The translations under genes were made by a program, and so were the position numbers. The notes beneath the pieces were generated by a model. That model was not told the DNA's origin. It saw only the letters and a program-made list of their open reading frames with translations, and ran no database searches. Shown one piece after another: positions 62,911-64,000 of a DNA stretch of 64,000 nt. The stretch comes from Luteimicrobium subarcticum (GTDB taxonomy: Bacteria; Actinomycetota; Actinomycetes; Actinomycetales; Cellulomonadaceae): positions 124,001 to 188,000 of the forward strand of contig NZ_PGTZ01000011.1 of NCBI RefSeq assembly GCF_002798015.1, in the 5' to 3' direction. Each line of letters starts with the position of its first letter. Within the stretch, counting starts at the first letter, position 1.

Positions 62911-63015
62911 GGTGCGCTCCTCACTGCGGTACGGCGACGCACGGACCCGCGGGAGTGCCGCGTCACGTGGCGTCGTTGGGGGGTTTGGGCTGAGCCTACG
63001 CCAGCATACCGCAGT

Positions 63016-63033
63016 TATCTTGACGTCAAGATA
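63016..63033. promoter_or_regulatory. 18-bp perfect palindrome upstream of acnA, candidate operator
   Basis: TATCTTGACGTCAAGATA is perfectly self-complementary. On the minus strand it supplies CTTGAC as a -35-like hexamer, 16 bp before TATGCT. It also contains the stop codon of the P-type ATPase gene. A bound dimeric regulator would block or modulate acnA transcription; the regulator is not in the window. Confidence 0.6.
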
Positions 63034-64000
63034 TCGGCGCGCGGTGGCGCGCGCCGATCAGCCGGAACAGCACCTCGATGAGCACCCAGCCGACGACGAC
63101 GGTCGTCGCGACGACCTCGAGCGTCCACGCGTCCGGCACCTCGAGGGCGAAGAACCGGCGCGTGACCGGGAGGGCGAACGCCCCCGCCCCGGCGAGCCCG
63201 AGGGCGACGACGAGCCAGCCCCGCCACCCCCGCCACGGCCGGGCCGCGATCCCCAGGACCCACAGCGCCAGGCCGAGCAGCACGAGCGTGGCCGCCGAGC
63301 GTGCGTCCGTCGTGCCGAGCCGGTCCCGCACGACGAGGTACGCCACGAGGACGCCCGCGCCGGCGACCAGTCCGGACGGCACCGCGTACGTGAGCACGCG
63401 CGGCAGGAACCCGGGCCGGTACCGCGTGTCGTTCGGCGGCAGCGCCAGGAAGAACGCCGGGATCCCGATGGTGAGCGAGCTGATCAGCGTGAGGTGGCGC
63501 GGCAGGAACGGGTACGGCACCGCGATGAGGACGACCGCCACCGCGAGCAGCGCGGCGTACGTCGTCTTGGTGAGGAACAGGCCGGCGACGCGCTCCATGT
63601 TCGCCATGACCCGGCGGCCCTGGGCGACGACGCCCGGCAGCGTCGCGAACCGGCCGTCGACGAGCACGATCCGGGCGACTGCCTTCGTCGCGGCCGCGCC
63701 CGAACCCATCGCGATGCCGAGGTCGGCGTCCTTGAGCGCCAGCGCGTCGTTCACCCCGTCCCCCGTCATGGCGACGACGTGGCCGCGCGCCTGCAGCGCG
63801 TGCACCATCGCGCGCTTCTGCTCGGGTCGCACCCGCCCGTACACGCCGTGGGTGTCGAGCACGTCCGCGAGCGCTTCGGCGTCGTCCGGCAGGTCGCGGG
63901 CGTCGAACCCGGGGTCGGGCGCGGCGTCCGGGCCGGACGACCCGACGGACGCGGCGATGGCGGCGACCGTGGTGGGGTTGTCGCCGGAGATCACGACGGT
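63026..64000 (-). CDS. P-type cation-transporting ATPase (CtpE-like), C-terminal part
   Basis: The gene enters from beyond the right edge; about 325 C-terminal residues are visible. They begin with '[16 protein letters not shown]', the nucleotide-domain motif, followed by '[45 protein letters not shown]' (in part), the hinge motif. Six hydrophobic segments follow, including '[23 protein letters not shown]' (in part) and '[14 protein letters not shown]', which resemble mycobacterial CtpE, a calcium-uptake pump. The stop codon lies inside the acnA upstream palindrome, and the two genes are 115 bp apart on the same strand. Confidence 0.92.

Follow-up and report, generated by a model that had tools for sequence, protein, structure and literature searches.

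A putative TamR operator before the aconitase gene acnA of Luteimicrobium subarcticum is conserved across the family Cellulomonadaceae

Results

The acnA locus of L. subarcticum

The window analyzed in this study is a 64-kb stretch of the L. subarcticum genome, toward one end of which acnA and a P-type ATPase gene follow each other on the minus strand (Table 1). The palindrome before acnA was checked against the sequence and was 18 bp long and perfect as claimed in the original prediction, and the TGA that ends the ATPase frame (63028–63026, minus strand) was also found inside it. With up to three mismatches allowed, TATCTTGACGTCAAGATA was matched at 63016–63033 only, both in the window and in the whole 3.63-Mb host genome. 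The window contained three perfect 18-bp palindromes, and the mean in 40 first-order Markov sequences of its composition was 1.4. Given that about 1.4 perfect 18-mers are expected per 64 kb by chance, the perfection of the 18-mer alone is not significant.

Table 1. Features identified around the acnA promoter, with positions in the window
Feature	Position	Strand	Basis
acnA, aconitate hydratase, 919 aa	60151..62910	-	GTG start codon at a distance of 105 bp from the palindrome; product (62910–60151) identified as NCBIfam AcnA (TIGR01341, 1333.9 bits vs. cut-off 945)
-10-like TATGCT, 15 bp after TTGACG	63003..63008	-	Sequence; 13 TATGCT and 1 TATGAT among 14 such promoters
18-bp perfect palindrome TATCTTGACGTCAAGATA, proposed TamR operator	63016..63033	.	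Sequence; site in 115/121 family genomes; lies before acnA
-35-like TTGACG inside the palindrome	63024..63029	- (acnA strand)	Sequence; fixed distance to TATGCT/TATGAT in 14/60 distinct acnA promoters
TGA that ends the P-type ATPase gene, within the palindrome	63026..63028	-	Sequence; also found in both congeners
C-terminal part of the P-type ATPase gene, which continues beyond the window	63026..64000	-	TIGR01494, 95.9 bits vs. cut-off 62.3

The gap between CTTGAC and TATGCT (63008–63003) was 16 bp, the same as counted in the original prediction, and was 15 bp when measured from TTGACG. A scanner demanding a spacing of 16–18 bp found no consensus promoter at acnA. For comparison of acnA promoters, 70 acnA loci were reduced to 60 distinct promoters by removal of 6 identical copies and of 4 loci without the strict palindrome (L081, L241, L242, and L243). 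Counted from the first palindrome base, TANNNT began at +25 in 14 of the 60 promoters, all of which had TTGACG 15 bp ahead of it. In another 20 promoters TANNNT began at -7; no promoter had it at both positions, and 26 had it at neither. After 1000 rounds of shuffling of the flanks, the means were 0.2 at +25 and 0.2 at -7, and the largest numbers were 3 at either position and 4 at any place. Smaller peaks of TANNNT were found at +16 (11 promoters) and -6 (8 promoters). All three genomes of the genus belonged to the +25 set. Based on these positions of TANNNT, the putative operator would cover the -35 region of acnA in the genus and the transcription start site in the -7 set.

The ATPase gene ended with ATA TCT TGA in the host and in both congeners, and overlap of its stop codon with the palindrome was found in all three genomes of the genus. 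A search of about 1.5 kb to either side of the sites in the inspected loci of other genera yielded no ATPase match, and thus the palindrome in those genera is not kept by a stop codon. The original prediction had proposed that selection on an operator and selection on a stop codon would coincide here. As far as examined, the overlap looks like a local coincidence of the genus, and it does not account for the conservation of the palindrome. The last ATPase codons also contain a GC-rich hairpin of 11 bp (63033–63058, minus strand) that abuts the palindrome, with no T run after it; the 71-nt stretch that includes this hairpin folded with -33.2 kcal/mol (z -2.9).

Conservation of the palindrome and the genes beside it

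With no more than one mismatch, ATCTTGANNTCAAGAT was found in all three genomes of the genus, host included, in 115 of the 121 sampled genomes of the family, covering 25 of the 25 genera sampled, and in 121 of the 197 sampled genomes of the class. The reversed pattern was matched in 0 of 3, 2 of 121, and 14 of 197 of these genomes, respectively. In the phylum sample, the 18-base form with one mismatch was matched in 21 of 296 genomes, of which 10 were among the 26 inside the class and 11 among the 270 outside. Because the reversed control of this form was matched in 6 of the same 270 genomes, the palindrome belongs to the class and drops to near background beyond it. Two near-palindromes 33 bp apart were observed in one genome outside the class (G367:C1:375028–375078, L092).

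The site adjoined acnA in 28 of the 32 loci of other genomes that were inspected (L002, L004–L034), where the family-wide matches contributed loci for 30 matches. The four remaining genomes also had a palindrome before acnA, which was exact in two of them (L036 and L038) and carried two changes, TATCTCGACATCGAGATA, in the other two (L238 and L239). In addition, one genome scored as site-less in the family count (G038) possessed TATCTCGACGTCGAGATA before acnA. No acnA was found in G027 and G036, whose assemblies are 80 and 89% complete, respectively. The palindrome was thus kept upstream of acnA in the relatives, the point on which the original prediction was to stand or fall.

The genes beside the sites were classified for 79 rows, in which some sites were counted twice (e.g., L076 = L211). 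They were acnA in 59 rows, tam in 8, tam together with tamR in 4, a monomeric NADP isocitrate dehydrogenase gene in 2, another NADP isocitrate dehydrogenase gene in 1, and other genes in 5. These rows came from a scan of 91 loci, with the host loci L001 and L003 left out, by a pattern that tolerated one outer mismatch and, at one inner position per arm, a C in place of T and a G in place of A; sites with another mismatch, many of which were chance-like, gave no row. The two types of isocitrate dehydrogenases next to the sites exceeded the NCBIfam cut-offs, as did a streptomycete Tam (353.5 vs. 320). The best match of the family's Tam was also trans-aconitate 2-methyltransferase, at a score below the cut-off (251.1 vs. 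320). At one of the sites with other genes (L045), a malate dehydrogenase gene follows at a distance of about 400 bp. Moreover, a palindrome in G004 (L015, 1501–1516) was located about 15 bp before an ORF with a weak match to a Pfam glyoxalase family, and in the streptomycete locus L084 a glyoxalase-like ORF directly followed tam.

No tam was found in the host genome (G000) at E-values up to 1e-10. Both congeners (L244 and L245) encode tam, but in the 260 bp preceding its aligned start no site was recognized, and the best core scored 6 of 12.

TamR of the host and the promoters of tamR genes

The host TamR (P0001) is encoded on contig C2 of G000 (607513–608022, minus strand). It belongs to the MarR family (Pfam MarR_2, 57.9 bits vs. 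27) and was the only protein of the host genome that matched TamR at E-values up to 1e-20. P0001 was 65% identical to P0002 of a streptomycete-type genome, and the stretch QTLVTSGTMTNRIDRL, which we take to be the DNA-reading helix region, was identical in both. Judged by its sequence, P0001 is the ortholog of the tam-adjacent TamR of Streptomyces. Among the solved structures that it matched were the MarR-family chains 8ylh, 8ylf, and 2fbk, the last of which is HucR. In the family, a TamR match was found in 116 of 121 genomes.

A search for the palindrome elsewhere and before regulator genes, as suggested in the original prediction, revealed its core before tamR both in the host and in Streptomyces. 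In the host, the perfect 14-bp core TCTTGACGTCAAGA was located 16 bp before the ATG of tamR; the strict 18-mer search with three mismatches missed this site because four outer positions differ. With at most one mismatch, the core occurred at three places in the host genome: at tamR, at acnA, and, mismatched at one position, at C1:868039. Its reversed control did not occur. The core at G000:C1:868039–868052 (L097, 1501–1514), which may be a chance match, is followed after about 165 bp by an ORF that contains F5/8 type C domains.

In two streptomycete-type genomes, the site was located between tam and a divergent MarR gene. Among the Streptomyces loci, the best 80 of 547, which were found with the streptomycete and the host TamR proteins and located by tblastn, all had the core TCTTGANNTCAAGA with at least 10 of 12 positions at or before the start of tamR (12 positions in 29 loci, 11 in 44, and 10 in 7). 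For background, 2 of 4000 random stretches of 170 bp from Streptomyces loci reached 10 of 12, the test stretches being 220 bp. Some streptomycete cores were just inside the tamR ORF, as the starts used may lie too far upstream. In 76 of these 80 loci tam was divergent from tamR with a shared operator, an arrangement that was absent in the host genome; the other four had no tam match.

Similar to those of Streptomyces, the tamR promoters of the family, represented by the best 30 of the 116 genomes with a match, host included, all had a core of at least 10 of 12 (background 0/4000). In 29 of these 30 promoters (L098–L127), TCAAG directly preceded the core, so that three half-sites stood in a row (TCAAGAnTCTTGAnnTCrAGA-like). 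In the class, 37 tamR promoters were compared, of which 20 were chosen from the 103 genomes with both TamR and the 16-mer site and 17 were all those from genomes with TamR and no site. A core of at least 10 of 12 was found in 29 of the 37 (15/20 with the site and 14/17 without). The 8 promoters below this value comprised 5 of the former 20 and 3 of the latter 17, and the first five included four genomes of 1.3 to 1.5 Mb. Three genomes of 1.3–1.4 Mb (G437, G467, and G525; L246, L247, and L248) kept a TamR ortholog and at least one palindrome, which was not at tamR.

Co-occurrence of TamR and the palindrome

Co-occurrence was tallied by hand in 2 × 2 tables. In the family, 113 genomes had both TamR and the site, 3 had TamR only, 2 had the site only, and 3 had neither (Fisher p = 6.7e-4, kinship ignored). 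The three genomes with neither (G079, G107, and G113) possess acnA, and the cores in their acnA promoters scored 6 to 8 of 12. They may represent a single loss, because they are of one genus, and two of them are 77 and 72% complete. The two genomes with a site and no TamR match (G029 and G119) are 91 and 79% complete, respectively.

In the class, the site was present in 103 and absent in 17 of the genomes with a strong TamR match, and present in 18 and absent in 59 of the others (p = 7e-19, kinship ignored), where the others included 15 genomes whose best TamR E-values were no better than 1.7e-40. Thus, 18 of the 121 site-bearing genomes were without a strong TamR, and several of their sites look like chance matches. 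G495 and G511, which are 77 and 82% complete, respectively, possessed the palindrome before acnA, and TamR was not found in them.

Discussion

Our results from this study make it highly likely that the palindrome before acnA is the operator of a TamR-type repressor of the MarR family, which is encoded elsewhere in the host genome. In this reading, the palindrome would serve to repress acnA via TamR until citrate or trans-aconitate accumulates, where the binding, the repression, and the ligands are taken over from published work on Streptomyces. A TamR dimer would bind the palindrome, cover the -35-like TTGACG, and keep acnA expression low. A rise of citrate or trans-aconitate, for instance after damage to the iron-sulfur cluster of aconitase, would loosen TamR, and its release would derepress acnA as well as tamR.

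Several other explanations of the palindrome were considered. That it is a chance palindrome near a promoter has a negligible probability: perfect 18-mers are expected by chance in a window of this size, but the sequence and the position are conserved across the family. The acnA palindrome is regarded as real because of this conservation, for which the chance explanation was rejected. It is also very improbable that the palindrome ends the ATPase transcript by means of an RNA hairpin. In favor of such a terminator, the ATPase stop codon falls within the palindrome, whose RNA is predicted to fold with -6.1 kcal/mol into a stem of 7 bp and a loop of 4 bases. However, no terminator-like match with a GC-rich stem and a T run after it was found between 62900 and 63200, and the inspected sites of other genera had no ATPase match beside them, for which reasons this explanation was rejected. 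The same element, moreover, lies between the divergent tam and tamR genes of Streptomyces.

A different regulator of acnA, such as a PecS-like MarR paralog or an iron or redox regulator, is unlikely to bind the operator in place of TamR. Many relatives possess a second TamR-like protein with an identity of about 43–53%, and aconitase is a usual target of iron regulators. The host genome, however, encodes a single TamR-matching protein (E-values up to 1e-20), the promoter of tamR itself carries the same core, and TamR and the site are jointly missing in three genomes that keep acnA. The original prediction had suggested that the palindrome may link aconitase to an iron, redox, or metal regulator. 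An operator at acnA is indeed very probable, but TamR, and not an iron or metal regulator, most likely acts on it, and the link of TamR to redox conditions, as outlined for aconitase in PMC5487221, would be indirect, through damaged aconitase.

The TamR regulon of Streptomyces coelicolor was reportedly described by Huang and Grove in 2013 and by Huang and colleagues in 2015. The genes tam, idh, and mdh are reported targets of TamR. According to one account, TamR of S. coelicolor, which is SCO3133 (PMC9739823), represses aconitase among the genes of the citric acid cycle until citrate and trans-aconitate release it (PMC5487221). Similar to this regulon, L. subarcticum possesses a MarR-family ortholog of the regulator that Streptomyces encodes divergently from tam, with aconitase as a predicted target. 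In addition, the palindrome has the same sequence as that at tam/tamR of Streptomyces, as compared at the genome loci, and sites at isocitrate dehydrogenase genes were found in relatives of the host. Different from Streptomyces, however, tam was not found in the host and tamR is apart from any tam, the core is limited to acnA, tamR, and a third place with a mismatch, and the putative operator forms the -35-like region of acnA.

The host TamR also belongs to the same wider protein family as PecS, HucR, and MftR, which are a group of urate-responsive MarR regulators. Different from these regulators, TamR is described as a sensor of citrate and related compounds that does not respond to urate (PMC6391409). 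Among actinobacteria, transcriptional control of aconitase is likewise known from Corynebacterium. AcnR and RipA control acn of Corynebacterium, and their regulator families and operators differ from those of TamR. Among the literature matches listed, which were obtained by searches without the name of the host family, TamR control of aconitase was reported for Streptomyces only; a literature search by the letters of the palindrome returned nothing useful. The putative TamR operator at acnA is thus of a known kind, which would here be extended to the family of the host.

We tentatively consider that aconitase, and not tam, may be the core of the TamR circuit, a possibility that we regard as open to doubt. 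The promoter may have moved around a fixed acnA operator: in some relatives the -10-like box ends one base before the palindrome, which would make the operator overlap the start site, and in the genus and its neighbors the operator would supply the -35 element. In L. subarcticum, the circuit may have shrunk to acnA and tamR after the loss of tam, a citrate sensor outliving the enzyme from which it took its name.

These results assign a probable regulator and a probable signal to the aconitase gene across a whole actinobacterial family, and they offer a short, readable putative operator by which TamR targets may be found elsewhere. Moreover, the acnA promoters would provide a natural series for the use of one operator by promoters in different positions.
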